The notes under the pieces were generated by a model. It searched no databases. It saw nothing but the letters and a program-made list of their open reading frames with translations, and was not told the origin of the DNA. Below, in pieces: positions 4,340 to 30,152 of a stretch of DNA of 34,395 nt. Each line of letters opens with the position of its first letter. The first letter of the stretch is position 1. The DNA is from an uncultured Bacteroidales bacterium. Lineage in GTDB: Bacteria > Bacteroidota > Bacteroidia > Bacteroidales > Bacteroidaceae. Location: assembly GCA_902779165.1 (NCBI GenBank), contig CACZAN010000038.1, forward strand, positions 1 to 34,395, in the 5' to 3' direction. The position numbers were made by a program, and so were the translations under genes.

Positions 4340-4425
4340 CAAAAAGTGTTGTAAAAACGGACAAGAATTTTTGTTAGAAAAGCCAAGATGCGCGAAAAAT
4401 ACAATTTTTTGCTCATTATATACAA

Positions 4426-4455: not shown

Positions 4456-4508
4456 CACACCATTTAATTGCAAATTCATTTATTCATTAAACAAAAACTC
4501 CTAATTGT

Positions 4509-7500
4509 ATGAAAAAATTCTTATTTCTTTTAGCATTTGTTCTCGCAGGCGCGAGCGCGATTGCACAAGGCTGGGTTGCACCTTCAAATAGCGAATACCT
4601 CTACTCCACAGTAGTCTTCGCCCGCCTCAATACGAACTTGTTCCCTTCGAGTTCGAACTTGGTGCTTGGAGCCTTTGTCAACGGCGATTGCAAGGCCATG
4701 GCCTCCCCGGATCCCACCGTTTCCGGCAACCCGTTCTATACGCTTCACCTCCTGAGTGACCTGGACGGCGACCTGAACATGCCGATCACATTCCGGGTCT
4801 ATGACGGCAAGACGGGTTTCGAGTATGTACTGGAATCGCCGTCACCAATGAAATTCATCGACCAGGCCACCTATGGCACGCCGCCTTCTACCAACGCTGT
4901 GGAGCTCACCCTGACGGCTGCCACCAATTTTTCCCTCGACTTTACTGAGGCTGAACTCTGGACTACGAACACCCCAATTGAGTACAACCTCTACAAGGAC
5001 TACATGACCATCACACCCACAGGCGGTGTCATTCCTATAAATCTGGAATGGGAAATCACGCCTGCTGGGTATGCCATGGCCACAGATAGCTTGCTGGTAG
5101 CAATGAAACTCTACGACGGCGAACTGACCCTGAAGCTGAAAGGCCCCGCCACCACGACAGCTGGGCCCTCAACGTTGGCTTCTTCCACCTTCAGGATTGT
5201 ACAGCACGCCACCGCCATCGAGCTCGAAGAAACCAACATACAGGTCAATAAGAGCGACTTGGCCGCGATGAAGACATTCATGCAGAAGGGCATTTCCTAC
5301 AAACTCAACCCTGAGACCTCCACCGACCAGGTACTTTGGGAGACCGAGAATTCCGACATCCTCCTTTGGGATGACACCGAAAAAGCATTCAATCCTCAGG
5401 CTGGAGGTACCACGCGAATGCGCCCATACATTTTACAAAACAACAATACCACCAAACTCGTCCCCCTCATCGGCAATGACGAAGGCTGGATTAACGTTAC
5501 CGTCTACGTTCCCGCAGAAAGCATCGAGATTGACTACTCCGCATTCGGTGGAAGCTTCAAGGCCAATGTCGGCGACACCCATCTCTACGAACGTATGGCC
5601 AAGCTGATAACCGTCAAGCCTTCAGATGCAACGGTCAAGACCTATAAGATTAGCATCGAAAACGGCGACGGCGTTGTGGAGAAGGTTGGCAACACCACCT
5701 TCAATGCCGTGGGCTCTGGTGTTGCAACCCTCAAGGTCGAAGCTGACGGTGCTCCTGCTACGGCCGCCGTGCAGGCCACCATTAACCTGACTGTCGAGAA
5801 GCCCGTCAAGAGTGCAGACATTCCCAACAACATTATCTATGCCACCCTTACCGACGGCAATCCCACCGACATCACCGACAAAGTGCGTGCCAACATCTCC
5901 CTCGGCGGTGATCCCGACCTCTGGGCTACACAGGCCACCGCCACCCTCAGCGGCACCTTCGTAACCTGTACGGACGACACTGGTGCTCCCTTCACCCCGG
6001 CCTTCAACGCTACTGGAATCCTCGGCAAATACACCGCCGTGGCCGAAGGTACCTCCACCATGACCATCGACCTTCGTTGGCCGAACTACGACGATTGGGG
6101 TGTTTCCTCAAATGAGCTGACCTACGGCAATGCCCAGAAGACCTTCGACATCGTGGTCCAGACCGTGGTTTCCCTCATTGGCTTCGACGTATCCATCATC
6201 AATCCCATTGCCGGACAGGACGGCACCATCACCCTGACACCTCAGCCCGAAGGTGCCACCTTCGATCCCGAGGAGATTAATGTCAACATCTACAACGATT
6301 ACGACGATGATATTAACAAAACCAACGACTGGAGCGATCAGCTCACCATCAATATAGTCTCCAAGACAACCAAAGCTTTGATCTACAACTTCTCGTCCAC
6401 CATCCCTGGCAACGTTAACGTCCAGGTCACTCAGAATGCACTCACTGGCGGCGAGACACCCATCCCCGTCAACGACCCGAATTCTCCAACAGCCTACTCC
6501 TTCAAGAGCTTCGAGATTGGATGGCCTCTAGAACTCACTACCGGTTGGCAGTGGCGCAGCAACCCCTGCGGCTTCATCGCTATAACAGAACTCGGCAGCA
6601 CCTTCGGCACCAAAGACCTCCTGGAAATCCGAACTGGCAACAAGTTGCTCTACAACGATCCCAACTGGGGTCTCTTCGGCACGCTGACCTCCACGGCTGG
6701 CCTCCTCCAAGGACAGTGCTATAAGGTGAATATGGTGAACGCCCACACGGCAACGCTCCTCGGTAGCACCGTCACCGATGCCAACAAGCGTGCTGGCACC
6801 ATCGATGAAACCGCCAAGACCCTCACCATTTCCCTGAATCCCGGATGGAACTGGGTGGGTAACCCCTATCTCTTTGACCGCAACCTGAACGACCTCTTCG
6901 GAGGTACAGCTTCAGGCGTGTCAGATGGAACGGTCATTGTCGGCAAGACCGGTTCTGCAGAGTTCAAGTCTGCATCGGGCCTCTGGGAAGGTGACCTGAA
7001 GATGTTGAAGGCAGGCGAAGGATATATCATCAAGAATCCGAGCACTGCGGCCTTCAATCTCGTCTTCCCCGCCGAGACCACGCTGACACCTGGCAACGAT
7101 GCCGTTCCCTCTGGTGTCAAGGGCATCAATGCCCCCGTCAAGGTCTGGGAGTATGACCACACCCGCTTCGTGAACAACATGACCATCGTAGCCACCCTGG
7201 AAGGCATCGAACATCCTGACCAGTACAGCATCGGTGCCTTCGTGGGCGACGAGTGCCGTGGCGAGGGCATCATCGAAGACGGCAAGGCATTCATCACCGT
7301 CCACTGCGACGCCGATGAGTTCGTGACCTTCAAGCTCTACAGCCCCTACACCAACGACTTCTACTCCGTCGAAGAAGGCTTGAAGGCCCAGGCACGCGTC
7401 GGTTCGCTGAGAGCTCCTCTCACACTTCACGCAGCAGGAGTGGTCGATGGCATCAACGCCACCATGTCTTCGCCTTCCACTGAAGCAAATGCCGCCTACG

Positions 7501-7592
7501 ACCTCAACGGCCGCCGCTCCATCGCCACCCAGCGCGGAATCACCATCCGTCGTATGTCCGACGGCAGTGTCCGCAAGGTCATCGTGAAGTAA
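4509..7592 (+). CDS. Secreted multidomain surface protein with Big-like domains and sorting-type C-terminus
   Basis: This is a 1027-residue exported protein. The signal peptide is MKKFLFLLAFVLAGASAIAQ (cleavage near A19/Q20). Residues about 30-130 contain a small domain with the core GAFVNGDCKAM and a following FRVYDG strand. A second copy occurs at about 895-960 with GAFVGDECRG and FKLYSP. Between them are several beta-sandwich stretches, one resembling a bacterial Ig-like (Big_2) domain near residues 380-435, and two related GW-W-NP segments (GWQWRSNP and GWNWVGNP). The end, YDLNGRRSIATQRG...VRKVIVK, resembles the C-terminal tails of Prevotella secreted proteins, often treated as type IX secretion signals. 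That assignment is by resemblance only. It is the first gene of the surface operon and has a good promoter. No enzymatic motif is seen, so a structural or adhesive role is likely. Confidence 0.85.
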   Translation: MKKFLFLLAFVLAGASAIAQGWVAPSNSEYLYSTVVFARLNTNLFPSSSNLVLGAFVNGDCKAMASPDPTVSGNPFYTLHLLSDLDGDLNMPITFRVYDGKTGFEYVLESPSPMKFIDQATYGTPPSTNAVELTLTAATNFSLDFTEAELWTTNTPIEYNLYKDYMTITPTGGVIPINLEWEITPAGYAMATDSLLVAMKLYDGELTLKLKGPATTTAGPSTLASSTFRIVQHATAIELEETNIQVNKSDLAAMKTFMQKGISYKLNPETSTDQVLWETENSDILLWDDTEKAFNPQAGGTTRMRPYILQNNNTTKLVPLIGNDEGWINVTVYVPAESIEIDYSAFGGSFKANVGDTHLYERMAKLITVKPSDATVKTYKISIENGDGVVEKVGNTTFNAVGSGVATLKVEADGAPATAAVQATINLTVEKPVKSADIPNNIIYATLTDGNPTDITDKVRANISLGGDPDLWATQATATLSGTFVTCTDDTGAPFTPAFNATGILGKYTAVAEGTSTMTIDLRWPNYDDWGVSSNELTYGNAQKTFDIVVQTVVSLIGFDVSIINPIAGQDGTITLTPQPEGATFDPEEINVNIYNDYDDDINKTNDWSDQLTINIVSKTTKALIYNFSSTIPGNVNVQVTQNALTGGETPIPVNDPNSPTAYSFKSFEIGWPLELTTGWQWRSNPCGFIAITELGSTFGTKDLLEIRTGNKLLYNDPNWGLFGTLTSTAGLLQGQCYKVNMVNAHTATLLGSTVTDANKRAGTIDETAKTLTISLNPGWNWVGNPYLFDRNLNDLFGGTASGVSDGTVIVGKTGSAEFKSASGLWEGDLKMLKAGEGYIIKNPSTAAFNLVFPAETTLTPGNDAVPSGVKGINAPVKVWEYDHTRFVNNMTIVATLEGIEHPDQYSIGAFVGDECRGEGIIEDGKAFITVHCDADEFVTFKLYSPYTNDFYSVEEGLKAQARVGSLRAPLTLHAAGVVDGINATMSSPSTEANAAYDLNGRRSIATQRGITIRRMSDGSVRKVIVK

Positions 7593-7643
7593 CACCTTAT
7601 TAATTTACACACGCACATACGCGTGAGAACGACATCCTGACGT

Positions 7644-9449
7644 ATGAGACGAATCCTCCATAGAACTATTCTGATGGTACTCTTCGCACTGGTCGCCGTG
7701 TCTCTGGACACGGCGGCACAGACGCTTTCGCTCAATACCATCTCCACCATCGCCAAGAGCGACCCCCTCATCATCACGGGTGCCGTTGGAACACAGAACA
7801 CCTACCGCTACAGTTCGGCGGGCAATGGCTATGCCTCCCCCATGAGCAATAGCGTCTATGCCAACCTGAACATCAGCGTCTACGGAATCTCCATGCCCTT
7901 CGCTCTCTATTTCACCAACGACGGGATTGACTGGAACTATCCCCACATCGCCTTCCACCTCACGCCGGCCTACAAGAACTGGCGTGGTCACTTTGGCCAG
8001 AGCAGCATGTCCTTCAGCCCCTATGTCATGAACACCTCGTTCAATGGCATAGGGCTGGAGTACAATTCCGAGCGGATACGTGCGGGCGCCTTCTATGGCA
8101 CCCTTCGCAGCGCCATCAACGACGACCCTACCGACCCCTTCGCGCGCCAGCCTCAGTACAAGCGCGTGGGCTGGGGGTTCAAGGCCGGCTACGGCTCGGG
8201 TCGCAACTACATCGATCTCTACGTTCTCCGTGCCTACGACCTTCCTAAATCCCTCGATGAGCAGTGGCGCCGCTATATCTCCCCGCAGGAGAACGTGGCC
8301 ATCGGCGTGAAGGGCGCCCTCGCCCCCACCAAGTGGCTGAGTTTCACCGGCAACATTGCCACCTCACTCTTCTCCACAGATACCCAGGCCCCGAAACTCG
8401 ACACCCTTGCCACGCCCGCGGCCAAGCGCTTCAGCAACGCCATCATGGATATCCGCTATTCGTCCATGGCGCGCTTCGCCGGCGACGTCAACGTCAACCT
8501 CTCCTTCCCCGGTATCTCCGGCTCCGTCACTTACCGCCTCGTTCAGCCCGACTACACCTCGCTGGGCACCTACTACATGGCTAACAACTACCATAGCTTG
8601 GGCCTCTCGCTGACCACGACGCTCTTCCGCAAGATATCCCTCGCCGGAAACTTCTCGGGTCAGTCAGACAACCTCACCAACCGCCAGATGTTCACCACCC
8701 GCGGTTTCATCTATTCCGCCATGGCCAGCACCCGCCTTGGCGAACACTTCAACATCAGTGCCGGCTACAACGGCTACACCCAGGTCCAGGGCGACGGCAC
8801 AGCCCAGGTCAACGATACCACCCGCGTACACCGCCGCACATACAGTTTCACCTGCACCCCTTCCTACATGACCGACAACGAGATCCTTGGCCACTCCGCA
8901 TCCCTCTCCTTCAACTACACAGGCAACAAAGACCTGAATAAGTTCGCCATCGGTGAGAGCGATGTCAAGACCATGGCTATCGGTGCCAACTACACCTTAA
9001 GCGTCAAACCCTGGAACACCGACTTCAGCCTCACCTTCAGCAACCAGACTTCCCGCGGCTACAAGACGAAGTATACCAGCCGCATCGGCACCCTCTCCAC
9101 GGGTCACACCTTCTTCGAAGATAACCCGCTCGTCGTCTCCGGCTCCATCTCGTTGGTATACAATGAGGTAGAGCGTCAGAGCAAGAGCCTCAACATAGGC
9201 GGCGATATCAGCGCCAGCTACACCCTGAAGCAGTATCACGTCTTCTCCGCCTCCGCTTCATTCTATAAGTACGGCGACGTCAATCCCACCAAGCTGCGCA
9301 GCACCCTCGACCGCACCGACATCACTGTCAGCCTCAACTACGCCTATACCTTCAGCCTCTTCGCCATCAAGAACAAGGAAGAGCGCGGCATCTTCAAGAA
9401 GAAATGGATGAAGCGTCTCTCCGAGATTTCCGAAGGATTCTCAGAATAA
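7644..9449 (+). CDS. Predicted outer-membrane beta-barrel protein
   Basis: This is a 601-residue protein with a signal peptide ending near DTAAQ (about residue 26). The rest is a long succession of short amphipathic strands with alternating hydrophobic residues and aromatic ends (for example FSGNIATSL-like, VSLNYAYTFSLF), as expected for a transmembrane barrel. It does not resemble TonB-dependent receptors: no plug domain or TonB box is visible. After the last predicted strand it carries a basic tail (KNKEERGIFKKKWMKRL) rather than ending in the usual terminal aromatic residue. It starts 51 nt after the previous gene and ends 54 nt before the giant gene, so it is probably co-transcribed. An anchor or export channel for the giant protein is an attractive inference, but not shown by the sequence. 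Confidence 0.8.
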   Translation: MRRILHRTILMVLFALVAVSLDTAAQTLSLNTISTIAKSDPLIITGAVGTQNTYRYSSAGNGYASPMSNSVYANLNISVYGISMPFALYFTNDGIDWNYPHIAFHLTPAYKNWRGHFGQSSMSFSPYVMNTSFNGIGLEYNSERIRAGAFYGTLRSAINDDPTDPFARQPQYKRVGWGFKAGYGSGRNYIDLYVLRAYDLPKSLDEQWRRYISPQENVAIGVKGALAPTKWLSFTGNIATSLFSTDTQAPKLDTLATPAAKRFSNAIMDIRYSSMARFAGDVNVNLSFPGISGSVTYRLVQPDYTSLGTYYMANNYHSLGLSLTTTLFRKISLAGNFSGQSDNLTNRQMFTTRGFIYSAMASTRLGEHFNISAGYNGYTQVQGDGTAQVNDTTRVHRRTYSFTCTPSYMTDNEILGHSASLSFNYTGNKDLNKFAIGESDVKTMAIGANYTLSVKPWNTDFSLTFSNQTSRGYKTKYTSRIGTLSTGHTFFEDNPLVVSGSISLVYNEVERQSKSLNIGGDISASYTLKQYHVFSASASFYKYGDVNPTKLRSTLDRTDITVSLNYAYTFSLFAIKNKEERGIFKKKWMKRLSEISEGFSE

Positions 9450-9503
9450 GTATCAGAGGAATTAAAGAATAAAAGAATATAAATATACAATATATATAAG
9501 GTT

Positions 9504-12500
9504 ATGATAGCCCTGATCTCTCATAATTCCCATAAGAACCATGAGTCCCACAAGACCCATGCTTTCTTCAGAGCCCTCTCTCTCTCTCTCTCTTTATTTT
9601 TGTCATTCCTCAATATCTCTTCCCCGCTGTTCGCCCAGGAAGTCACGGTGACAGTCACTCCGACGCAGCCCATCCTGCCGCCGCAAGTGATGCTCTATAT
9701 CACGGAGCCATCCAACTACTTCAACATCTCCCTGACCAACACGGGCAAGGACGACGCCAATATCTACCTCGTCATGCAGGTGGAGCAGGTCATGCCCTCC
9801 AGCGGCCTCAGCCTGAGCACTCCCGCCCGGCGCCAGCCCAAACTGCCGATTGTGGTACCTGCCGGTAGCACACACATCCTTTCTCCTTCTGAGATCCGCA
9901 GCCTCTTCAACCACATTCCCCTGAACGAGATTCAGGCTCCTCAGGACCTCTTCGATAACTACGCCAATGGTTCTTTTGGACTCCTGCCTGAAGGCCAGTA
10001 CGAGCTCCACATGACCGCCTATCGCTGGAATCTGGCCTTGACCGAACCTGTCGTCGCCAGTTCTCCCAGCGGAGGCTGTGCTGTATTCAGTGTCTGTTAC
10101 AACGCCCAAGCTCCTGAATTCCTGACACCTATGGCCGCCACTCAGGGCCTCCTGGCAGTGGCCGAGATGAATCCGCTTGCACCGCAGTTTACCTGGAAGG
10201 CACCCGTCGTGGCCTGCAACCCCAGTGCGCTGCAGTACACCTATTCCTTACGCATCGTTGAGGTCCTGCCCGGACAGGCACCCGACAATTCCATGGATAG
10301 TAACCCCGTGGTCTATCAGGTCTCGAATCTCAGCACACCGATGTGCATGATTCCACAGAGCGTCATCAGACAGATGACGGAAGGCAAGACCTATGCCGCG
10401 CAGGTCACAGCCACCTCGGCGACCGTCAACCGAGCAATGCTCAATTACGTCAGCATAGCCAACAACGGCAAGAGCACTTACAAGCTTTTCCGCTTGAATT
10501 CCCAGGTTAATCCCGTGGTACCGGAATTGGATAACGAGGACGAAGATGTAGAAGATGAGGACGACAGCGCTCCAGACCCCGAGGATGAGATGGAGTTGAT
10601 GGGACTTCTCGGAGAAATCAGGGGCAGCGGAGAAATCAGCGAAGACTCCCTCTATACCTATCGCAACCCCAAGCTGGTGGAACCCGTGTTCATCGAGAGT
10701 GCCGCCCGCAAGGTCTTCATTGAGGAAGACATCGATGTTGAATGGGAACCCGTATGGCATCTCGGCGGCGAGGGCACCAACCCCGGCGACAACGAGTTCG
10801 AATATGAGCTGCGCCTCTACAAAGGAAGTCAGGAAGCCGACCGCGAGGCTACCTTGAAGACCGAACCCATCTACACCCTGAGGACTCAGGAACTGAAGCA
10901 AACCATCGAATGGAAAGACATCGAGGAGAACGTCGCAAAAGGTGACTACATCCTGATGGAGGTCAAGCCCATCGTCACCAAGGGCGAGAGCATCGCCTTC
11001 ACTGGCGAAGACAACATTACGGACTTCGGACTCTGCGAAAGACTCTCACAAAAGTACTTCCAGTGCTCTGACATGGTGCAGATCAACGACAAGACTCCCA
11101 CCACCAAGTCAGCTCAAGACCTCAAAGGCAAGGTGGTGGCCATGGGCGAATACCTTCTCACCATCGATGACATCAAGGGCTCTGCTGCCGAAGGTTTCTC
11201 CGGCTCGGGCCGTGTGGAGTGGACTCCCTTTGGCTCCAAGATCATGGTATGCGTGACCTTCGACAAGCTCAAGATCAACAAAGAAGACATCGTCTATGAG
11301 GGTACGGCCGTCACTGCCAAGGAGCCTGCCATGCTGAGCAGCATGGAGGTCGTTGACAAGCTCTTCAGCGACTGGGGCATCGACAACCTCATCAGCGACA
11401 CCGGCCTTCCCTATGCCAAGCAAATCCAGGACAAGGCCACCTCCGAAGTCAAAAGTCTGGCCGAGAAGGTGAATCTTGGCACTTATTATAAGAAGTTGCA
11501 GGACGGCAAGGAAATCGGCAAACTCCTTACCACGGGTACCATGGACAAGCTCTATATGCCCGTCAGGTTCCCGAAGGAACTTCTGCAAGACAAGTTCGAC
11601 GCCGTGGATCTTCAGATTGTGGAGATGAAGTTCACTCCCACCTACGCCACGATGAACATCCTCGGCGAGGCCACCATGCCGGAGTGCGATGTCCTCAAGA
11701 GCAAGGTCCTCGTCTTCGGAGCACCACGCATCTGTATCTCCCCCAACCAGTTCCTGCCCGAGGCCGGACACGTGGCACTGCTCGGTGACTTCACCCTGAC
11801 ACCCTCTGCCGACATCGAGATGACGTTCAAGGCTCCGAAGAACGTCCTTGAACCAAGTGACGGTTGCTACATCTCTTGGAAGACCGTGGAGGAAAAGACG
11901 AAACTCGAGCTTCTCGGGGTGGATATCGACATGAAGATTGCCGATCTCGTCAAGGATGTCAATGGCACGCCCACCGACGAGACTCCCATCATGAACCTCA
12001 AGGCATCCGTCGGCAGTTGGGATGACTTCCTTGTGGACCACATCAGCATCGAGGACTTCCAGGTCAAGGACCTCCCGGGCTGGACATTCAAGGCCAGCGA
12101 CATCGTCTATGACCACACTAAGACCCGCAACTCCGAGCACATGGGCGCCTTCCCAAAAGGCTATAACAAGAAACTGGCGGGTTGCGACAAGTCCGATCTG
12201 CTGTGGCAAGGCTTGCACATCGGCAAGGTTGGCGTCGGTTTCCCGAAGTCCCTGCAAGTGGGTGTCGGGGACGACAAGGGCGACAAGCGCCTGTGGGTCG
12301 ATGCCAAGGAGATGTACTGGGACCAGAGCGGCGTCACCGTGACGATAGGTGCCGAGAACCTCTTCGAGGGCAAGGAAGGCACCCTCGGCGGATGGGGCAT
12401 CAGCCTCGACGAAGCCCACGTGCAGATTATCCAGAGCGACTTCGATAATGCCGGCTTCTCTGGACAGATCAATATCCCCATCCTCAAGACCGCCTCGAAG

Positions 12501-15500
12501 AAGGATGGTGAGGGCGACAAGGGGAAAGCCAAGGAGAAAGAACGCTTTGGCAACGTGGACTACACCTGCCAGATACGCAGCCTCACCAGTGTGGAAGCCC
12601 GCAAGAAAGGCGAGAAAGCACGCTATTCATACGTCTTCCTCACTGAGAACGTCGGCGAACTGGACTTCAGTTTCTTCATCGCACACGCAAAACTGGATGA
12701 CGTACAGACCTACTTCCTCGTTGAAGCATTTGACGAAGAGAAGGCCGACAAGATCAAGACCCAGGTGGAACTCTGCATGGGTGGTGAAATCGGTATCGGA
12801 CTTGTCGATGATGCCAACGACTGGATAAAGAAGAAGACAAAAAATCTGCCCCTGGAACTGAAGATTCCAGACGTCCACTTCACCAAGATGCGTCTCTCCA
12901 ACGTCAAGCGTAGCGAGTGGATCTCTGTGGATGAGAAAGCCAAGGAGAAACGTTCCGCACGCGAGCAGAAGGAAGAGCAGATCCGCAACAAGGCTCTGAC
13001 CGTTCTCATGGAGAGCGACGAAATCAACATCGGCACCGCTGATGAACCCTTCTACTTCGACCTCGGCGAATGGTCATTGGCTTCCGAGAAGAAACACCTC
13101 GGTCCCTTCTCCTTCTCGTTGGATAAGTTCTCGCCCGGATTCTCCGACGGAAGGGTCACCCTCCAACTGGGTGGCTCCTTGGGACTCTTAGAGGACAAGA
13201 TTGATGTCAGTGCTTCTTTGGTCATCGCCGCCAAGGTGAATACCAAAGGCGACCTCAAGGACTGGTCCATCGAATACGACACCGTTGAGTTTAAGAAGCT
13301 CAGCCTGGACATGGACTTCACCGCCATCCACCTCAAGGGCGAACTCGAAGCCACCGATAAACCCAACAAGGGCTACAAAGGAACCCTTGACATTGGCATC
13401 ACCGGCTTCTTCAACCTCGATTGCGAGGGCGGCTACTTCGAGCACAAGAAGGATGAGAAGAACGACGATGACGAGAGCTACTCTTGGGGGTATTTCATGG
13501 CTAACCTGGAGTCCGCTGCCCTGCGTTTCGACCCCGTGGTCATTGACCGTATCTCCGGCGGCTTCTTCTTCAACTGCCGACCCACCAAGGGCAAAGGTGG
13601 GTCCGGTGACGAACCCAAAAAGTCCAAGAATAAGTTCAATGGCGATCCCACACCTAAGAAGGGGTGCATCGGCATTGCTTTCGGTCTCGGCCTGTCCTCT
13701 TCTGCGGGCAAGGAGACCCTGAGTGCCGACCTCGATATGCTCGTGGTCTTTGATACGAAAAACAATTGCTTCTCCACCTTCATGCTCGATGGTACCCTCG
13801 AGGCCGTGGGAGGCATGGTCAAGGCCAACTGCTCACTCATGTACGAGAACGAGAAGGACATGAGCGGCAATACCAAGAACCGTTACCTATGCCTCAACGT
13901 CACCGTGGATGCCGGCGCGGACACCAAGGCACTCGTCGGAAAGGTTACCAAGGCCAATGCAGCACTCGAATCCCTGAAGGGCAAATTCACCGAGTTCCAG
14001 GAAGAACTGGATCCCAAGCAACTCTTCGAGAGGGTCGTTAGTCCCAAGAGCGACATGTCTGCCCTCTCCGGCAACGAGGTGGATGCGGAAGAAACCAAGG
14101 CGCGTGAGCCTTCGGATAAGGAAAAGAAAGAGCTGGGCATCACTGCCTGCAAAACGGAAATCAATCTGGAATTCAAGGTTACCTGGGTCAAGGACGGACA
14201 AAAATACTCCACGCCTAAGTGGCATCTCTACCTCGGCGAACCCGCCAAGGACAAGCGCTGCCGCTTCACTTTCCTGAAGTACGACGGCGTCATCGTCAAT
14301 GTGGACATCGGTGCCGACGCCTACCTCTGCCTCGGCAACGAACTGCCCGATGGCGGTGCACTGCCTGCCATACCTTCCACGATTACCGAGTTCCTCAGCG
14401 GACACAAGGCCGACCAGGCCGACATGGGTGCCGACCTCGGCAAGGCCGAGCGCAGCCGCAAGGCCGCTGCCAAGAAGCTCCTCGACCCCAACTCCTGTGA
14501 GGGCGGCATCATGGTCGGTGCCAGCGCCTGGGGCCACATCGGCATCGACCTCGGTCTTTTCTACGGCTCCCTCGATGCCATCGCAGGCTTCGATGCAGCC
14601 CTCGTCAACTACGGCAACAATGCCTTCTGCGTCAACTCCGGCTCGCACATGGGCTACAATGGCTGGTACGCTATGGGTCAGCTCTACGCTTACCTGCACG
14701 CCGCATTAGGTGTCCACATCCACATCGGTTCCCTCATCAACGAGAAGGTCAGCATCTTTGATGCCGGCATTGGCGGCGTCCTCGAAATCGGATTGCCGAA
14801 CCCCACCTGGGTCGAAGGTTCTGCCCGCATCAAGATCAGCCTCCTCGGCGGTCTCTGCAAGATCAACAAGAAGTTCGACTTCTCTGCCGGTGACCACTGC
14901 GTGCCCTTCAAGGGCAACGCCCTCGACGGCTTCGAGATGTTCCAGGGCGTCAGCCACGGTTCCGACAGCCTCTACCAGGCACTGCTCGACCCCACCTTCG
15001 CCATCTCCCTGAACGAGGCAAAGAACATGACCTTCACCACCCAGTCCTCCATCGGCAGCCACTACCGTCTGGTGGATCCCTCCTGGGAGAGTGAGTTGGC
15101 CGATAAGGAAGAGGTCAAGCAAGAAGACTTGGAGAAATCCTACGCCCTCAACGCCAGCCGCACCTACGTCTTCGACATCAATAAGGACAAGAACCGCAAC
15201 GGCATGAAGATGGGCGTCCGTCTCTTCGACCTCGGCGATGGCCCCACCCGCTGGATGGAAGAATGCAAGTCCTCTCCAATTGCAGAACATGGCTATGCCA
15301 AGAGTATTGCAAATGGCACGATCATAAGTCCGGAAGACCTGAAGGATCTCTTCGTGGGTAAAAATGCCAGCATCGGCAGCTATCGGCATGGCAACAACCT
15401 ATATTCTGAGATACTAAAAGGATACACCTACGACGAGCGCAACCAGTATGAATCTGCCTTCGCCAGCAACTTTGTTGACCTGCCACGCACCGAGACCGTC

Positions 15501-18500
15501 AACGAAGCCTCTATCATCATGCAGGGCAAGGAACTCAGCAACGGTCCCATCAAGGACCCGCTCTCATCGAAAGGCAAGGTCACTGGAGGATGGACCAACA
15601 GGGTAGGAGGCCGTCCCAGCGCTGCCGACCTCGAATCTTTCCTGAAGAAACAGATCGTGAATGGCGAGGTCAATGTCAGCTTCCGCGAGGACAAGGGTAC
15701 CACCTTCCACCTCAGTGACATGGACCTCAAGGCCGGCCACAGCTACATGATGATCCTGAGCGCCGATGCCTACGAGATCGACAACGGACGAAAGGTCTGG
15801 TGCGAGTACTACAGCGAGAAGGACCGTAAGAACCACCGCATCCACTGGCAGCAGAACAAGGTCTGGTTCTTCCGCATCAAGAGCGAGGAGGAGGAAAAGA
15901 TCGTCACAGACTCCCTCCGCTTCCTCGAGCCTTACGTGGCACTGGCATATCCCTCCACCAACGGCACACGCGTGGTGGACAACCGTGGCGAAGGTGTCGT
16001 GAAGGCATACTACACCGACATCATGCACCCCACCATCGCCCTCAACCGCGACATACGCGAAAGCCTGCCCGTAGAGAAGATGCAGTGGGTGCTCACCTAC
16101 ACACAGCCCGATGGGACGGAACTCGTGCAGACCCGCAATGCTGTTTACAAGACCTCTGGTAACTGCATCAACCTGGAACCGCAGCAGGCCTTCAAAGAGT
16201 TCAATCAGATCACATCCCTGCGCAATCAATCCAACAAGGGCACCTACAACTTCGACCAGGAGCAGTACCACCTCCAGCTCCTCTATACCTATTTCCACAA
16301 GAAGAAAGAAAGTGCCCTGGTGTCTAACTACAACGAGTACGGCAGGTATCTCGGCAAGATACCCGGATATATACTCGTCGATGACAAGGACAGCACCTTC
16401 GCCCTCGTGGATCTCTACGTCTCCCCGCTACCCCACCACCTCCAGGAAAAGAAGGTGGGTAACGAATGGTATCGTGCTGACAACTGGCTGCTCACGACTA
16501 CCAGTAGCCAGACAGAACCTGTGGCTTACAGTAAGCCCTTCGTCGGTGGTACCATCGACCAGGCACCCACCATCGAATACGAGAAAGACTACTACAGTTC
16601 ACGTGGCGGAGATCTTCTCACCGACGAGGACATCGTCTTCAAGAATGCCAAGTTTGGTGGCATCACGAATGCTCAGGGCCGTATCACCAACCGTTTCAAT
16701 CTGCCCTACCGCCTCATCGACCCCTACCTCTACTTCGCATACCTCGGCAAGTGGGTCTTCATTGGCGACCGCGAGATCAGCGCTTATAGTTTCGACAACG
16801 TGCCCGTGAAGTTCGGCTCCGAAAGCCTCATCTTCAACTACAACGGTACCGTTGTCAACTCCGAGTTCCTGAAGGGCCAGACCAACAAGTCGCTGCTGCA
16901 GCTTCGCAAGCAGATGTACGGCGTCTGGAACACCTGGAACTACAACGACTCGAACCATCCCAAGTACCCGCTGCCCTCGGTCGGCGGCACCATCGGTGGC
17001 ATCACCGCCGCCAACCAGGATGGCAAGGCCAGCACCGTCACACCCCTGAACATCAACCACTATACGGATTACACCTATGTCTTCGAAGACCTCGTGAAGG
17101 ATTATCTGGGAGCATATCAGGTGGCTTCAAAACTTTGTACCTTGCTGAACACGTATTCCACACAGTTGGTCAAGAAGTTCTATAATAAAGCCTCTTTCTA
17201 TGAATCCTTCAATAGCAGCAGCTTTGACAAAGCGTTCAATGAGAGCATGCAAGAATGGAACTCCCTCCATCGCGGGCAGTATATCGAGGCCTCAGACCGC
17301 GGCTACACCGTGCGCGTCCCCATGTATCAGCTACCACTCGTCTTTGGTGACTGCTTCGGTAACAATGCCAAGTTCGGTAACACCAGTTTAAATCGCTCCA
17401 AGCGTACCTTCACATTCTCCATTGGCGAGAACGACATGAAGTCCGGCGATGCAGCAAGTTCCAACCTCAGCTTGCGCTGGCCCTCTGCTGCCTCCAACCT
17501 CCTCTTCTTCCGCTTGAACGACGGCGGCAACCAGAGTTCGACATACTATGGCTACAACGCGCTGCCCTTCAAATACTTCGAGGGCGACAAATGGTCTTTG
17601 TATTCTTCCAACTACAAGAACTCTGTCAGCATCGAGCACGACCAGTTCGATGTCCACAAAGCGTTGCAAGCTGTCACCGGCTTCAAGGCGCGTCTCTACC
17701 GCGTGGACAGCTACGACATCAAGACAGGTCTGTACAAGGTCAGCTCCCAAAAATTCGGCGGCGGCCCATGGGAGCAGGTTGTTGCTATAGGTACTGGCAA
17801 TGCCACTGCCTCCAACATGGACAAGATGTACGAAGCCTCGGAGGAGATGGATGCCTTCTTGGAGACGCATTTCGACAAACCTACCGTGCAGGCAGTGTGG
17901 TGCGACAATGAGAAGACCCTTGTGTTCCTCGTTTCCAATATCGACTACAGCAGTGCCATCGGCGAGAAGATCGCCAACGTGGGCAAGGTGGGCGATGAGA
18001 CTTATGCTGTGGATGGCACATCCGCTGTGGAAAAGCGAAAAGGATGGTACAACTACGCCAAGAACGACTGTGAGAAGGTGATCTTCGACCCGTCCTTCAA
18101 GAATGCCGATATCACCACTTGCGAACGCTGGTTCTATAACTTCAAGAAGCTGAAGACCGTGGAAGGACTGCAGTACCTGCCCAAGACCATCACCTCCACC
18201 TCTTCCATGTTCCAGGGTTGTACCTCCCTCACGAGCCTCGATTTCAAGGGCATCGACCTGAGCAACGTCACTGACATGGGCAGCATGTTCTATGGCTGCA
18301 CATCGCTCACCTCCGTGAACCTCAACAAGTGCAAGGCCAACAAGGTGACCACGATGTTCGGTATGTTCTCCGGCTGCACCAGTCTGACCTCTGCCCGTCT
18401 CATGGACATGGAGACCGAGAGCCTCACCAACACGGCACGTATGTTCTTCGGTTGCTGGAGGATGACACTGGTAGACCTCACACGCTTCAATACCAGCCAG

Positions 18501-21500
18501 GTAGAAGACATGTATAACATGTTCGAGAACTGCGAATCGCTGACCTCTCTCAACCTCAGCTCCTTCGAAGGCGGCAACGTACGCCAGATGGGTGAGATGT
18601 TCTATAATTGCAAAAAGCTCACCTCCATTGACATGCGCAATTTCGACACTGGCGACCAGAAGAATCCATCTATGTCACGTGTTTTTGCTGGCTGCAAGGC
18701 ACTGCGCACTCTGAACATCGATGCCCTCAACCCAAATATCACATTCAGTGGTACATGCATGGCTATGTTCGATCAGGTCACCGCCGGCCTCACCTGTTAC
18801 TACTTCTGCGACCTCACGCCCTACATCGCCGATCAGATACCAGGTGCTAAGAAACCCCAGCCAGACAACCGTGCAAAGGTCATCCACGCGAGACTCAACA
18901 ATGGCACAGAGGCCCTCTTCTTCCTCTATTCCACCCAAACATTCTCCAAGAACAGTAGTTACACCATCACCACCAGCATCACACCCATTAACTCGTCCAC
19001 ACCTGAGAAGATTACTCATAATATTAAAGTATTGGATGTCTGGTCTGGGGATGATGTATTCAACACGGGCCTCAGTAATCCAAAGTGGGCCACCACCACC
19101 ATTGCCTCTGCCGTGAGGAACGTCTATATCGACGATAACTTCGCCGCCACCCCGCGTTCCACCTACAAGTGGTTCTATGGCTTCGACAAGATTACCGAGA
19201 TCCAGGGTCTGTCAAACCTGAAGACCGACAAGGTCACCAACATGGGTTACATGTTCAATAATTGCTCCAGCCTGACGAGTCTCGACTTCACGAAGAACAA
19301 ATTCGACGAGGTCACCAACATGTCGTACTTCTGCTATGGATGCACCGACCTGGCCACCGTAAAGGGACTCACATCCCCTGCGAGGTTCCCCAAGGTCACG
19401 GACATGTGCTATATGTTCTACCACTGCGAGGGCCTCACCTCTCTGCCCTGCTACGGCGGCCCCGAGGTGCGCAGAATGAATTATATGTATACCGGCTGCA
19501 CAGGCTTTGAGTACAAGGGCAGCACGCCCACCATCACGTCCGACAAGGTGACCACTATGGCCGACATGTTCCATGGCTGCAGCAACCTGCGCAACACCTT
19601 CAAGTTCACGTCCACGGCCAACGTCACCGACATGAGCTACATGTATGCCAGCTGCAGCAGTCTGCGCGAGATCAACATGGGCACGTTGAACACTGAGAAT
19701 GTGCGGCTCATACAAAACATTTTCTCCGGCTGCAGCAGTGCCTATCTCATCGACCTCGGCGAGATGTCGACCAAGAGACTGTCCAACTGCGGAAGCATGT
19801 TCCGCAGCGTGCCCAGCTCCTGCACCATCTACATCTACTACGATGCCACCTCCGTCATCCGTGAGTGCCCCTTGTCCACCTATCCCAAACGTATCCTCGT
19901 CTATCCTGCCAGCGCCGTCGTGCTGCGTTCCGGCGGCGACTACAAGCTGCACTTCGTCGGCGAGAAGATCACCCTGAAGAGGGGCGACACCTACAACCGC
20001 TCGCCCTACAGCGGCTATGTCATCCAGGATGTCTACTCCGGTACCTTTGTCCAGAACCGCGTCCGCAGCAGCGTGAACATCGCCGGCGCGACCTATAAGG
20101 AGATGTGGAACTACTATGCCGACCGCATCACCGAGGTGACCGTCGATGCCTCCTTCAAGAAGGTGGAGCTCATCAACGCCTTCGGCTACTTCAAGGGCAT
20201 GAACCGCCTGACCAACATCAAGGGTATCGGCAACCTGTCCACAGGTAATGCCCAGGATCTCGGCAGTTTCTTCTCGGGCTGCTCCAACCTGACGACCCTT
20301 GACGGTGGCTACCTCAGCACCGCCAGCGCCACCCGTATGGACTACATGTTCAAGGGTTGCGCCAAGCTGAGCTCCCTGGCAGGCATCCAGTTCGGCACCT
20401 CTGACATCGCCACGGACGTGAGCCACATGTTCTCCGGATGCTCCAGCCTGACGGAAATCAGTTCAAGCAACTACCCCCGCACAGGTAATGCAGAGGAGCT
20501 TGCCTACATGTTCTATGGCTGCTCATCGCTGACGGGCGTTCCTGTCAACCGCATGAAGATAACGTCCAAGGCTGAAAACATGGAGAGTATGTTCTCTGGA
20601 TGCACCAAGCTGAACTTTGCACGCTATATTGGCGGCTTCACGAACTGGGACGTCCAAAGCGTCTGGGATGCCACCAACATGTTCAAGAACTGCGCTACCA
20701 TCGCCGAGCTGGATCTCTCGACCTGGAACACACGGAGACTGGCCTTCTGGGACGGCATGTTCGCGGGTTGCACCAGTCTGCGCACCCTGAAGCTGGGAAC
20801 GAATGTGAACCTCTATAACGCCCGCAAGAAGTCTTCGACAACGTACCAAGCTTTCACCTCCGACCATGACATGGTCGTCGTGGCACCCAAGGAAGTGCTT
20901 TCCGATGTCAAGTCGTGGTTTACCACCCTGGGCTTTGTCGTGGGCACCACGGGACAGTTCTACGACAAGTTACCCGAGCAGACAATGCAGGTCATCTGGA
21001 CACGCAGCAACAAGACATTGACCTTCTACTACGGTAACCCCGTGGGTAGCACTTTCAATGGTAACTCCGTCACCAAGGTGTGGAAGGGCGATGCCGTGGG
21101 AGGAGCCACCTCCAAAGCGACGCGTGATTGGAACTACGAAGTCAAGAGCAATTTTACGAAGGTGGTCTTCGACAAGACATTTGCCAACGCACGTCCTGTC
21201 TCTACCCGCGGTTGGTTCGCCAATTGCACAAACTTGGTGACCATCGAGGGCCTGAACAATCTGCGCACCGACAACGTTACCGACATGTACATGATGTTCT
21301 ACAATTGTTCCAGTCTGCAGGAGCTTGATTTGTCAGGTCTCATTACGTCCAAGGTCACCGACATGGGGTATCTCGTCTACGGATGCACATCACTGAAGAC
21401 TCTCAAGGTCTATTCCACTTCCACCTTCCGCACGCTCAATGTGACGAGCATGAAGGGTATGTTCGGCTACTGCACCTCACTGAAGGCCCTCGATCTGAGG

Positions 21501-23234
21501 TCGTTGAAGACCTCTGCCGTGACCAATGCCGACAACATGTTCAACAACTGTACCAGCCTGCGCGAGCTTGATGTCAGTTCCGACTTCAACTTCCCGTCGC
21601 TGAGCTCCAAGGCCACCGGAGCCTTTACCAGTGTTTCCAAGTTGGAGATCACCGCAAGCAGCTCCGTCATCAGCACGGTGAAGAATCCCATCGTCAATAA
21701 GTTAGGATTCATCGAGCGCGTTGATGGCACCAATGGTGAGTTCGTGGCCACCGACAAGAAGGGTCCCCAGGCCATCTGGTGCTCCAGCAGCAAGCGGCTC
21801 ATCTTCGCCTATGGCAAGGAGTACAAGGCTGGCAGCAAGTTCAACGGCTACACCATCACCAACGTCTGGAAAGTCAGCGGCAGCAGCACCCCGTGGCTCG
21901 ACACCGTCAAGGGAACCGTGACCACCGTGGTGATCGATGCGAGCATGGCCAACTACTCCCTCATGTACTTCAGCGGATGGTTCAAGGATTGCACCAAGCT
22001 CACCTCGGTGAGTGGCCTGGAGTACCTGAAGTCCTCCTCCTCGGGTGCTTCCTTCAGCAACATGTTCTATGGCTGCGTGAGCCTCAACCGCCTCGACGTC
22101 AGCAATCTTGATGTCAGCAACGCCACCAGCTTCTACTGTATGTTCTATGGCTGTACGGAATTGGAAAACATCAATGTCAGCAAGTGGAACACCTCCAAGG
22201 TCACCAACATGAGCTATATGTTCGCTAAATGCAGAGACATCACCAGCCTTGACCTTAGCAACTTTGATGTCAGTAAGGTCACCACTTTCAGAGGCATGTT
22301 CTCCTCCAGCGCCTACCTGTGGAATATCACTGGCCTGGATAAATGGAACACCATCAGTGCCAAAGACATGTCCTACATGTTCTACGGCTGCGAGCGGCTC
22401 AGCACCTTCAATCCCACGAATTTCAACACGGTCAATGTCACGGATATGAGCTATATGTTCTCTGGCTGCGAGAAATGGACTGTCACAAGCCGTGGCTCCT
22501 ATCCCGCCCCAAAGAATTACAACGTAAGCAATGTCACCAACATGAGCTACATGTTCTATGGCTGCGATGGCATCACCAACTTGGAACTCCCCAACTGGAA
22601 AACCGGCAAGGTCACCAATATGTCCTACATGTTTGCGTGGTGTTCCGGCCTCAAGACAGTCAACTTCAGCGGATGGGATACAAGGGCGGTGACCACCATG
22701 CAATCCATGTTCTATCGTTGCAATTCTTTGACTTCCATCAGCCTGACATCTTTCAACACCCCAGCACTGACAACCATGAAGCAGATGTTCTATATGTGTG
22801 AAAAGTTGGGTTTGGTTGACCTGCATACCTTTGACCTGAGCAATGTCTCGGATATGAGTTATATGTTCGCCGGCTGCAAGAATTGGCCAGTTATTGATTT
22901 ACGTGTGTCCAAGAAGATAAAAGCCGGCGTCAATATGTACTACATCTTCAACGACACCTGGGACGTAACTGCAAAATATGGTGGCGTCAGTCTGAATGTC
23001 AACACGAACTTCGTGATAACAACGAGCCAGAACTGTGGTTGGCCGACGCGCGACGATTACTTCAACTATTGTTGGTTCAATCTCTACACGAATGATCGCA
23101 GCGTCAACACGACGACCAAGAACACCGCCATCACCACGCTGAGGAATCTGGGTTGGAAAGGCGCTGCTAAGGGTGAGAAGCCCTACTTCTACTACAAATT
23201 CGTCAATGGCGGATCAAAGGATATTGAATTCTAA
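9504..23234 (+). CDS. Giant (4576 aa) exported protein with five tandem BspA-type (DUF285) modules
   Basis: The signal peptide spans about residues 1-45, with hydrophobic core LSLSLSLFLSFL and end FAQE. The first part (about 46-190) resembles the TANFOR-type N-terminal domain of large Tannerella/Bacteroidetes proteins (tentative). FN3-like stretches flank an acidic linker at about 345-370. Residues about 520-2790 are beta-rich and unrecognised, with a distinctive GWYAMGQLYAYLHAALG segment near 1720. From about residue 2795 to 4470 there are five modules. Each has a lead-in domain (QAVWC/QVIWT/QAIWC...) followed by 25-residue repeats of the type VTNMSYMFYGCSSLTSLDL. About 37 MF-x-x-C repeats are seen by eye. 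BspA repeats are known as adhesive surface repeats. The C-terminus shows no sorting domain. The ATG is preceded by AAGG at a good distance and no other Met is near. A (CT)9 tract lies in the signal-peptide codons. Confidence 0.9.
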   Translation: MIALISHNSHKNHESHKTHAFFRALSLSLSLFLSFLNISSPLFAQEVTVTVTPTQPILPPQVMLYITEPSNYFNISLTNTGKDDANIYLVMQVEQVMPSSGLSLSTPARRQPKLPIVVPAGSTHILSPSEIRSLFNHIPLNEIQAPQDLFDNYANGSFGLLPEGQYELHMTAYRWNLALTEPVVASSPSGGCAVFSVCYNAQAPEFLTPMAATQGLLAVAEMNPLAPQFTWKAPVVACNPSALQYTYSLRIVEVLPGQAPDNSMDSNPVVYQVSNLSTPMCMIPQSVIRQMTEGKTYAAQVTATSATVNRAMLNYVSIANNGKSTYKLFRLNSQVNPVVPELDNEDEDVEDEDDSAPDPEDEMELMGLLGEIRGSGEISEDSLYTYRNPKLVEPVFIESAARKVFIEEDIDVEWEPVWHLGGEGTNPGDNEFEYELRLYKGSQEADREATLKTEPIYTLRTQELKQTIEWKDIEENVAKGDYILMEVKPIVTKGESIAFTGEDNITDFGLCERLSQKYFQCSDMVQINDKTPTTKSAQDLKGKVVAMGEYLLTIDDIKGSAAEGFSGSGRVEWTPFGSKIMVCVTFDKLKINKEDIVYEGTAVTAKEPAMLSSMEVVDKLFSDWGIDNLISDTGLPYAKQIQDKATSEVKSLAEKVNLGTYYKKLQDGKEIGKLLTTGTMDKLYMPVRFPKELLQDKFDAVDLQIVEMKFTPTYATMNILGEATMPECDVLKSKVLVFGAPRICISPNQFLPEAGHVALLGDFTLTPSADIEMTFKAPKNVLEPSDGCYISWKTVEEKTKLELLGVDIDMKIADLVKDVNGTPTDETPIMNLKASVGSWDDFLVDHISIEDFQVKDLPGWTFKASDIVYDHTKTRNSEHMGAFPKGYNKKLAGCDKSDLLWQGLHIGKVGVGFPKSLQVGVGDDKGDKRLWVDAKEMYWDQSGVTVTIGAENLFEGKEGTLGGWGISLDEAHVQIIQSDFDNAGFSGQINIPILKTASKKDGEGDKGKAKEKERFGNVDYTCQIRSLTSVEARKKGEKARYSYVFLTENVGELDFSFFIAHAKLDDVQTYFLVEAFDEEKADKIKTQVELCMGGEIGIGLVDDANDWIKKKTKNLPLELKIPDVHFTKMRLSNVKRSEWISVDEKAKEKRSAREQKEEQIRNKALTVLMESDEINIGTADEPFYFDLGEWSLASEKKHLGPFSFSLDKFSPGFSDGRVTLQLGGSLGLLEDKIDVSASLVIAAKVNTKGDLKDWSIEYDTVEFKKLSLDMDFTAIHLKGELEATDKPNKGYKGTLDIGITGFFNLDCEGGYFEHKKDEKNDDDESYSWGYFMANLESAALRFDPVVIDRISGGFFFNCRPTKGKGGSGDEPKKSKNKFNGDPTPKKGCIGIAFGLGLSSSAGKETLSADLDMLVVFDTKNNCFSTFMLDGTLEAVGGMVKANCSLMYENEKDMSGNTKNRYLCLNVTVDAGADTKALVGKVTKANAALESLKGKFTEFQEELDPKQLFERVVSPKSDMSALSGNEVDAEETKAREPSDKEKKELGITACKTEINLEFKVTWVKDGQKYSTPKWHLYLGEPAKDKRCRFTFLKYDGVIVNVDIGADAYLCLGNELPDGGALPAIPSTITEFLSGHKADQADMGADLGKAERSRKAAAKKLLDPNSCEGGIMVGASAWGHIGIDLGLFYGSLDAIAGFDAALVNYGNNAFCVNSGSHMGYNGWYAMGQLYAYLHAALGVHIHIGSLINEKVSIFDAGIGGVLEIGLPNPTWVEGSARIKISLLGGLCKINKKFDFSAGDHCVPFKGNALDGFEMFQGVSHGSDSLYQALLDPTFAISLNEAKNMTFTTQSSIGSHYRLVDPSWESELADKEEVKQEDLEKSYALNASRTYVFDINKDKNRNGMKMGVRLFDLGDGPTRWMEECKSSPIAEHGYAKSIANGTIISPEDLKDLFVGKNASIGSYRHGNNLYSEILKGYTYDERNQYESAFASNFVDLPRTETVNEASIIMQGKELSNGPIKDPLSSKGKVTGGWTNRVGGRPSAADLESFLKKQIVNGEVNVSFREDKGTTFHLSDMDLKAGHSYMMILSADAYEIDNGRKVWCEYYSEKDRKNHRIHWQQNKVWFFRIKSEEEEKIVTDSLRFLEPYVALAYPSTNGTRVVDNRGEGVVKAYYTDIMHPTIALNRDIRESLPVEKMQWVLTYTQPDGTELVQTRNAVYKTSGNCINLEPQQAFKEFNQITSLRNQSNKGTYNFDQEQYHLQLLYTYFHKKKESALVSNYNEYGRYLGKIPGYILVDDKDSTFALVDLYVSPLPHHLQEKKVGNEWYRADNWLLTTTSSQTEPVAYSKPFVGGTIDQAPTIEYEKDYYSSRGGDLLTDEDIVFKNAKFGGITNAQGRITNRFNLPYRLIDPYLYFAYLGKWVFIGDREISAYSFDNVPVKFGSESLIFNYNGTVVNSEFLKGQTNKSLLQLRKQMYGVWNTWNYNDSNHPKYPLPSVGGTIGGITAANQDGKASTVTPLNINHYTDYTYVFEDLVKDYLGAYQVASKLCTLLNTYSTQLVKKFYNKASFYESFNSSSFDKAFNESMQEWNSLHRGQYIEASDRGYTVRVPMYQLPLVFGDCFGNNAKFGNTSLNRSKRTFTFSIGENDMKSGDAASSNLSLRWPSAASNLLFFRLNDGGNQSSTYYGYNALPFKYFEGDKWSLYSSNYKNSVSIEHDQFDVHKALQAVTGFKARLYRVDSYDIKTGLYKVSSQKFGGGPWEQVVAIGTGNATASNMDKMYEASEEMDAFLETHFDKPTVQAVWCDNEKTLVFLVSNIDYSSAIGEKIANVGKVGDETYAVDGTSAVEKRKGWYNYAKNDCEKVIFDPSFKNADITTCERWFYNFKKLKTVEGLQYLPKTITSTSSMFQGCTSLTSLDFKGIDLSNVTDMGSMFYGCTSLTSVNLNKCKANKVTTMFGMFSGCTSLTSARLMDMETESLTNTARMFFGCWRMTLVDLTRFNTSQVEDMYNMFENCESLTSLNLSSFEGGNVRQMGEMFYNCKKLTSIDMRNFDTGDQKNPSMSRVFAGCKALRTLNIDALNPNITFSGTCMAMFDQVTAGLTCYYFCDLTPYIADQIPGAKKPQPDNRAKVIHARLNNGTEALFFLYSTQTFSKNSSYTITTSITPINSSTPEKITHNIKVLDVWSGDDVFNTGLSNPKWATTTIASAVRNVYIDDNFAATPRSTYKWFYGFDKITEIQGLSNLKTDKVTNMGYMFNNCSSLTSLDFTKNKFDEVTNMSYFCYGCTDLATVKGLTSPARFPKVTDMCYMFYHCEGLTSLPCYGGPEVRRMNYMYTGCTGFEYKGSTPTITSDKVTTMADMFHGCSNLRNTFKFTSTANVTDMSYMYASCSSLREINMGTLNTENVRLIQNIFSGCSSAYLIDLGEMSTKRLSNCGSMFRSVPSSCTIYIYYDATSVIRECPLSTYPKRILVYPASAVVLRSGGDYKLHFVGEKITLKRGDTYNRSPYSGYVIQDVYSGTFVQNRVRSSVNIAGATYKEMWNYYADRITEVTVDASFKKVELINAFGYFKGMNRLTNIKGIGNLSTGNAQDLGSFFSGCSNLTTLDGGYLSTASATRMDYMFKGCAKLSSLAGIQFGTSDIATDVSHMFSGCSSLTEISSSNYPRTGNAEELAYMFYGCSSLTGVPVNRMKITSKAENMESMFSGCTKLNFARYIGGFTNWDVQSVWDATNMFKNCATIAELDLSTWNTRRLAFWDGMFAGCTSLRTLKLGTNVNLYNARKKSSTTYQAFTSDHDMVVVAPKEVLSDVKSWFTTLGFVVGTTGQFYDKLPEQTMQVIWTRSNKTLTFYYGNPVGSTFNGNSVTKVWKGDAVGGATSKATRDWNYEVKSNFTKVVFDKTFANARPVSTRGWFANCTNLVTIEGLNNLRTDNVTDMYMMFYNCSSLQELDLSGLITSKVTDMGYLVYGCTSLKTLKVYSTSTFRTLNVTSMKGMFGYCTSLKALDLRSLKTSAVTNADNMFNNCTSLRELDVSSDFNFPSLSSKATGAFTSVSKLEITASSSVISTVKNPIVNKLGFIERVDGTNGEFVATDKKGPQAIWCSSSKRLIFAYGKEYKAGSKFNGYTITNVWKVSGSSTPWLDTVKGTVTTVVIDASMANYSLMYFSGWFKDCTKLTSVSGLEYLKSSSSGASFSNMFYGCVSLNRLDVSNLDVSNATSFYCMFYGCTELENINVSKWNTSKVTNMSYMFAKCRDITSLDLSNFDVSKVTTFRGMFSSSAYLWNITGLDKWNTISAKDMSYMFYGCERLSTFNPTNFNTVNVTDMSYMFSGCEKWTVTSRGSYPAPKNYNVSNVTNMSYMFYGCDGITNLELPNWKTGKVTNMSYMFAWCSGLKTVNFSGWDTRAVTTMQSMFYRCNSLTSISLTSFNTPALTTMKQMFYMCEKLGLVDLHTFDLSNVSDMSYMFAGCKNWPVIDLRVSKKIKAGVNMYYIFNDTWDVTAKYGGVSLNVNTNFVITTSQNCGWPTRDDYFNYCWFNLYTNDRSVNTTTKNTAITTLRNLGWKGAAKGEKPYFYYKFVNGGSKDIEF
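9576..9593 (+). repeat. (CT)9 simple sequence repeat in signal-peptide codons
   Basis: Nine CT units encode alternating Leu and Ser at residues 25-30 of the giant protein. Change by one unit shifts the frame. Gain of one unit leads to a TGA at 9649, and loss of one unit to a TAG at 9866. This is the usual layout for slipped-strand phase variation of a surface protein. Confidence 0.8.
17886..22905 (+). repeat. Five-fold super-repeat within the giant gene
   Basis: Five modules begin near nt 17886, 18872, 19890, 20980 and 21763. The approximate number of MF-x-x-C repeats per module is 7, 8, 7, 4 and 11. Each lead-in holds a strand-rich segment, a VW/VY turn, a 'TTVVIDASFAN'-like strand and a W-F/Y-x-x-C or equivalent cap before the repeats start. 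The last module is the most regular (DMSYMFYGC, NMSYMFAWC), the earlier ones more diverged. Confidence 0.8.
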
Positions 23235-23253
23235 ACAGAAAGAAACATAAGAT

Positions 23254-25533: not shown

Positions 25534-25610
25534 TCACCAGGAAACCTAGAAGACCTGGAGACTCTAGAACATCTAGAGACTCTAACAAATCTGGAATAAG
25601 ACACCGCCCT

Positions 25611-26522: not shown

Positions 26523-26570
26523 AAGACCCACTCCATTAAACCCATCAACCCCATTAGCCCCATAACCCCT

Positions 26571-30150: not shown

Positions 30151-30152
30151 TG

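Follow-up and report, generated by a model that had tools for sequence, protein, structure and literature searches.

A giant-protein gene cluster that probably belongs to a Bacteroidota-wide surface display module

The window, by which we mean the whole 34,395-nucleotide stretch of DNA analyzed here (contig CACZAN010000038.1 of an uncultured Bacteroidales bacterium, assembly GCA_902779165.1), is contig C38 of a source genome comprising 3.59 Mb in 75 contigs. At positions 4509-28982 it carries six open reading frames (ORFs), every one on the + strand, separated by gaps of 51, 54, 19, 77, and 48 nt; the third, g3 (P0003; 9504-23234), encodes a giant protein. A sequence-only reading of this DNA had proposed that these six exported genes form an undescribed system built round the BspA-type repeats of the giant, and the locus thus raises the question of whether such a system exists and which of its parts defines it. 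The basic description holds: the ORFs bear out six co-directional genes with 19-77 nt gaps and a giant of 4576 residues, and each protein begins, as judged by eye, with a signal-peptide- or lipobox-like N-terminus.

The comparisons described below show that the module is real, widespread, and co-inherited, and that it is centered on an outer-membrane barrel and the TANFOR/core portion of the giant, with the BspA-like repeats peripheral to both. On balance, we consider it probable that the window cluster is one member of a Bacteroidota-wide module that displays giant, tail-variable proteins at the cell surface. The cluster most likely constitutes an outer-membrane apparatus dedicated to export or display, by a mechanism that we infer from the properties of its parts.

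A second cluster and the architecture of the giant

A barrel search of the source genome retrieves, on contig C5, all six genes again, in the same order and on the opposite strand. The C5 products match those of the window at 33% over the 320 C-terminal residues of g1, 56% over 570 residues of the barrel, 40% over 1890 residues of the giant, 37% for the FN3 protein, 41% over 165 residues of g5, and 28% over 598 residues of g6. The C5 giant is 2477 residues long and possesses no PARCEL tail. Because this paralog dispenses with the repeats, they are best described as a tail that a conserved protein may carry or lack, and the idea of a system built round a BspA-type protein is not supported in that form, given that the same genome encodes the whole cluster with a repeat-free giant.

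The window giant, examined through its ORF with Pfam and NCBIfam, divides into conserved and variable portions. Residues 43-337 (9630-10514) form a divergent TANFOR and Fn3-like region recognized by hhalign, and residues 536-1735 (11109-14708) form a conserved beta-rich core, which in other lineages is a gene of its own. Across 70 aligned giants, identity to the window protein per 110-residue block amounts to 27-52% for residues 1-1870 and to 7-32% beyond them, including the variable region at residues 1871-2880 (15114-18143). From about residue 2881 to 4460 (18144-22883) there follows a leucine-rich repeat (LRR) tail, matched by TIGR02167 (PARCEL; E 8.1e-123, 20 stretches) and by PF03382 (DUF285; E 2.5e-137). 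The BspA-type LRR_5 model also matches this tail, so that the earlier designation of the repeats stands in part, but at E 2.4e-35 it scores less well than PARCEL/DUF285. The BspA-like part of the protein is this PARCEL/DUF285 tail; it is variable cargo, and the core of the system lies elsewhere. A fibre or adhesion role for the giant is a candidate function whose sole basis is the repeat tail.

Other giants end differently. The PARCEL tail is recognizable in 11 of the 80 named loci introduced below, a count in which the 10-kb flank cuts off many giants. Ten tail stretches from nine relatives include seven without a Pfam match at E<=0.01 and three of LRR or ribosomal protein L7/L12 type. Two giants of the family, in genomes G459 and G508 (L088:3-2714 and L090:1-2199), carry C-terminal domains of the ribosomal L7/L12 C-terminal type, which are unexpected in exported proteins; G508 has three such stretches (PF00542, E 1e-46). 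At locus L093 the giant is split over two ORFs of 1974 and 1321 residues, and at L150 a giant-like protein of only 500 residues is followed by g5.

Gene neighborhoods from family to phylum

In a survey of the family, relatives of the barrel occur in 13 of 151 genomes, the source genome included. We read 17 family loci, among them the two of the source genome: 14 contain g1 to g5 in the same order, one is truncated by a contig end, and two (in G401 and G441) are of a distant type. Downstream of this conserved series, g6 is recognizable in 7 of the 14 ordered loci, the remainder having other genes or a contig end at that position. Screening a single genome for each species yielded 147 barrel relatives, and the named-locus counts refer to the best 80 loci, chosen by barrel similarity. 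These derive mainly from metagenome-assembled genomes labeled Prevotella, Prevotellaceae, Bacteroidaceae, or Bacteroidales, many of them ruminant, and also from Hallella seregens ATCC 51272 (locus L126), where barrel and giant are paired but the giant is not succeeded by an FN3 gene. The next module gene after the barrel encodes the giant N-terminal domain in 79 of the 80 and the core as well in 75; the hidden Markov models (HMMs) behind these two counts contain rows from the same loci, and plain BLAST agrees with them. Directly upstream of the barrel lies g1 in 76 loci, the other four having no visible upstream gene.

Gene length gives a further measure of the association. Where a barrel is followed on its own strand by another gene within 500 nt, that gene encodes at least 1000 residues in 73 of 78 pairs from the named loci, versus 6 of 108 control pairs, and in 34 of 47 pairs from more distant loci, versus 5 of 215. 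The control pairs are other pairs from the same loci, excluding genes matched by the module's own HMMs.

Beyond the family, barrels were found in 34 of 198 genomes of an order sample and 31 of 198 of a phylum sample, with the source genome counted in both. The distant set comprises 62 loci (39 of the 43 other places in the order, 21 of the 38 other places in the phylum, and those of G401 and G441); ORF calling and HMM search recovered the barrel in 60, and L035 and L042 were excluded. At E<1e-8 these 60 loci encode a TANFOR-type ORF in 39 cases, the core in 14, and the FN3 protein in 35, with at least one of the three in 51 and none in 9; some rows of the FN3 and TANFOR models were supplied by the same distant loci. 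TANFOR and core are fused in four distant loci (L005, L006, L025, L027), lie on separate genes in four others (L028, L030, L034, and L076, where the TANFOR gene has an additional short, weak core match), and in six the core occurs without TANFOR. That the two exist both fused and split suggests which parts work together. A second gene order, in which the FN3 gene precedes the barrel, is seen in L018, L024, L053, L054, and L064.

The association is also recovered when the search starts from the partners. Run against the 198 order genomes, the curated TANFOR model has 21 matches at E<=0.01, one of them above its cut-off. Of the 16 with E<=1.4e-4, 15 follow a barrel at a distance of 86-506 nt; since one gene was matched twice, these better-scoring matches represent 15 TANFOR genes, 14 of which have a barrel directly upstream. 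An FN3 profile at E<=1e-50 finds 24 places, including the source genome's own two, of which 18 share contig and strand with a barrel and lie within about 14 kb of it, while five fall in genomes whose barrel is on a different contig and one in a barrel-free genome. Without the seven of these places that were themselves rows of the profile, the linkage is 11 of 17. The idea of a system withstands this gene-neighborhood check, which was proposed with the sequence-only reading and asks whether homologs of the barrel, FN3, and lipoprotein genes recur together with giant TANFOR/BspA-type genes.

Insofar as sequence comparison can establish it, the barrel, the TANFOR-type N-terminal domain, the beta-rich core, and the FN3-array protein are shown to be co-inherited, with a variable C-terminus on the giant. 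One could instead regard the gene order as ancestral linkage of unrelated surface genes that form no joint machine, given that all six proteins belong to the envelope and that surface genes frequently cluster in Bacteroidota. We judge this quite improbable, since the association is kept across the order and phylum samples and in the duplicated clusters of one genome, and whether TANFOR and core are fused or split.

The barrel, its partners, and the route of export

The barrel, g2 (P0002; 7644-9449, 601 residues), is predicted from its structure model to be a 26-stranded pore without a plug. Fold searches place MtrB nearest, the sheath barrel being the clearest match. By sequence P0002 matches nothing in the PDB, no Pfam or NCBIfam model at E<=0.1, PorP/SprF included, and no PHROG model. 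A putative role of the barrel in exporting or anchoring the giant, as first suggested, fits the 26-strand, plug-free model.

The remaining genes encode putative surface partners. The first, g1 (P0001; 4509-7592, 1027 residues), is exported and contains an AFVGDECRG-type domain; it had been read as Big-like, and no Big domain was found in it. Its C-terminus resembles the short type IX secretion system (T9SS) sorting domains described for Prevotella intermedia (PMC11969387); TIGR04183 matches 3 of 25 g1 homologs and leaves P0001 itself unmatched. Downstream of the giant lie g4 (P0004; 23254-25533, 759 residues), an FN3-array protein with sub-threshold Pfam fn3 matches only, and two predicted lipoproteins, g5 (P0005; 25611-26522, 303 residues) and g6 (P0006; 26571-28982, 803 residues, with a sub-threshold LPAM_1 match). 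The AFVGDECRG-type domain is common to g1 and g5, and their C5 relatives cross-match as well, although g1 looks T9SS-sorted and g5 is a predicted lipoprotein. No Pfam model scores above its cut-off for residues 1 to about 2880 of the giant or for the barrel, FN3, and lipoprotein genes.

Divergent from the cluster, P0007 (1366-4299, - strand) is a hybrid regulator in which Pfam recognizes TPR, histidine kinase, receiver, and AraC-type helix-turn-helix (HTH) domains. A divergent regulator with TPR and AraC-type parts precedes both clusters of the genome, the C5 relative matching the TPR and HTH of P0007. Among 56 named loci, 34 have a regulator as the first gene visible upstream of g1, divergent in 25 and on the same strand in 9. 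AraC-type hybrid regulators and lipoproteins are typical of polysaccharide utilization loci, and a SusCD-like nutrient-capture system with the barrel as importer would accommodate both, as well as the porins and TonB-dependent receptors that occur, though lower, in the barrel's fold lists. We nevertheless regard this as very improbable: the modeled barrel is plug-free and matches a sheath barrel more clearly than any other fold, and, as already claimed, none of the six proteins matches a SusC/SusD, glycosidase, peptidase, or pilus family (Pfam and NCBIfam, E<=0.1).

More weight attaches to the possibility that the giant is T9SS cargo that leaves the cell by the SprA translocon, the route put forward by Jana et al. 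for TANFOR proteins, and that the role of the barrel, FN3 protein, and lipoproteins is limited to anchoring or assembling it once exported. The source genome encodes SprA (on C48), PorU, and GldM. SprA is present in all 34 barrel-carrying order genomes, SprA_N in each of the 30 phylum genomes that, besides the source, carry a barrel, and SprA in 11 of the 13 barrel-carrying family genomes, once as a fragment below the cut-off; with double counting removed, 74 of 76 barrel genomes (34 order, 30 phylum, 12 family) have SprA or SprA_N. PorU matches occur in 12 of the 13 family genomes, 11 of them above the cut-off. The sorting-like C-terminus of g1 and the reported enrichment of T9SS substrates near TANFOR genes (PMC7073777) are also in keeping with this route.

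Several observations argue the other way. Because SprA is frequent without the barrel too (153 of 164 barrel-free order genomes and 100 of 138 in the family), its association with the barrel is uninformative. No TIGR04183 sorting domain was found on the giant at E<=0.1 or elsewhere on contig C38. Genome G403 lacks SprA, though PorU and GldM are present, and G401, a 99% complete assembly of 3 contigs, encodes the barrel, core, FN3, and TANFOR proteins yet yields no match to SprA, PorU, or GldM. We therefore treat T9SS export of the giant as a real possibility that falls short of probable. The G401 cluster (L076) nonetheless includes a gene whose product matches a T9SS sorting domain in the middle of its sequence.

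Returning to surface display by a conserved module, we envisage that each protein would cross the inner membrane via Sec and that, at the outer membrane, the barrel would hold the giant or let it pass, the TANFOR/core part serving as a docking or scaffold section. The giant might traverse the barrel itself, or the T9SS translocon with the barrel as anchor only; g1 is probably exported by the T9SS. The FN3 protein and the two lipoproteins would complete the surface assembly, and the variable tail would face outward and, in the window protein, bind instead of kill. A stronger version, which we advance only tentatively, holds that barrel, core, and FN3 protein constitute a dedicated Bacteroidota secretion/display pathway, an unrecognized TANFOR delivery machine separate from the T9SS translocon, that delivers toxins or leucine-rich binding tails according to lineage. 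If surface display is correct, the repeats would be a tail that can be exchanged while the platform bearing it is conserved, which would explain the repeat-rich giants of gut Bacteroidales found among unannotated envelope genes.

For the one strong promoter and one terminator of the sequence-only reading, the analysis finds one promoter-like site and one hairpin terminator. A pattern match of TTG, 19 nt, and TATCTTTG, which we take to be the Bacteroides-type promoter consensus, lies at 4426-4455 (+ strand); it is the sole + strand match in the window, with one further match on the - strand at 33373. Since 200 mononucleotide shuffles already yield 0.255 matches per strand, this site is modest evidence, and a sigma-70-type scan of 4200-10000 gave no more sites than shuffles. 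Folding predicts a hairpin followed by TTTTCG at 29041-29083 (+ strand; -30.9 kcal/mol, z -3.42), which is not among the terminators listed by a terminator scan. Beyond the 3' end of the cluster, the - strand carries a KilA-N/antirepressor-like gene (29551-30207) and an Abi_2 abortive-infection gene (32625-33275), and at 30485-32325 a sigma-70-family, extracytoplasmic-function (ECF)-like sigma factor gene adjoins a zinc-finger anti-sigma-like gene.

Relation to TANFOR toxins and other known systems

When 25 family N-termini, the window's included, are aligned with six TANFOR proteins, hhalign returns a probability of 99.7% (E 8.6e-26, 262 columns, 27% identity). The curated model TIGR02542 finds nothing in the source genome at E<=0.01 and nothing on P0003 at E<=0.1. 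TANFOR proteins were defined by their N-terminal domain as a Bacteroidetes polymorphic toxin class, one of whose tails, BaCT, is a demonstrated DNase (Jana, Salomon, and Bosis, 2020, PMC7073777). The same source reports SprB, Fn3, PKD, and sorting domains as enriched near TANFOR genes and offers T9SS export as a suggestion only; its main text contains no word starting with 'barrel' or 'porin'. P0002 matches no domain model, which would account for a domain-based enrichment overlooking the barrel. The proposal of an undescribed system must accordingly be qualified: the module is conserved, and its giant is related at the N-terminus to a described class.

This relationship, the variability of the tails, and a separate TANFOR protein at L030 (L030:12033-18626; 2198 residues), which ends in an AHH nuclease domain, is followed by a 218-residue ORF, and is encoded adjacent to barrel, core, and FN3 genes, all recommend a polymorphic toxin locus, directed against bacteria or a host, in which the PARCEL tail would be a binding section before an unrecognized toxin. 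For the window this is unlikely. Pfam and NCBIfam find only DUF285, LRR, and PARCEL families almost to the C-terminus and no toxin domain; no immunity gene directly follows the giant, the next genes being the conserved FN3 gene g4 and the lipoprotein genes and not a variable, immunity-like gene; and the relatives' tails described above are mostly without Pfam match and otherwise of LRR or L7/L12 type. Export of TANFOR proteins is an open question in the literature as represented by PMC7073777, and the barrel upstream of the better-scoring TANFOR genes is a concrete candidate component, so that deletions of individual genes could address the question.

The window system thus shares with TANFOR toxins a homologous N-terminal TANFOR/Fn3 region, large, exported proteins of Bacteroidetes whose C-termini vary, and nearby FN3 genes and T9SS-type proteins; it differs in escaping TIGR02542, in that no toxin or immunity gene was found, and in possessing a dedicated barrel and a beta core. 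In the T9SS with SprB/SprF-type giant adhesins, a giant Bacteroidota surface protein likewise adjoins a dedicated barrel. SprB-repeat proteins even occur in the related clusters L012 and L076, yet none of the six window proteins has a Pfam or NCBIfam match at E<=0.1 to the SprB or PorP/SprF family, and the giant has no match to a T9SS sorting domain. With MtrB of the MtrAB(C) sheath complex, as described in PMC7198977, the modeled barrel shares a 26-strand fold; unlike that complex, the six proteins contain 0 CxxCH haem motifs, and the barrel has no sequence match in the PDB. PARCEL proteins as described by Roske et al. (2010, PMC2996958) have the same tandem 25-26-residue repeats of TIGR02167, which in the window form the tail of a 4576-residue protein with a conserved, delivery-like N-terminus. 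Finally, LRR_5 matches liken the giant to BspA-type leucine-rich adhesins, but the likeness is confined to the tail, where PARCEL/DUF285 provides the better fit.
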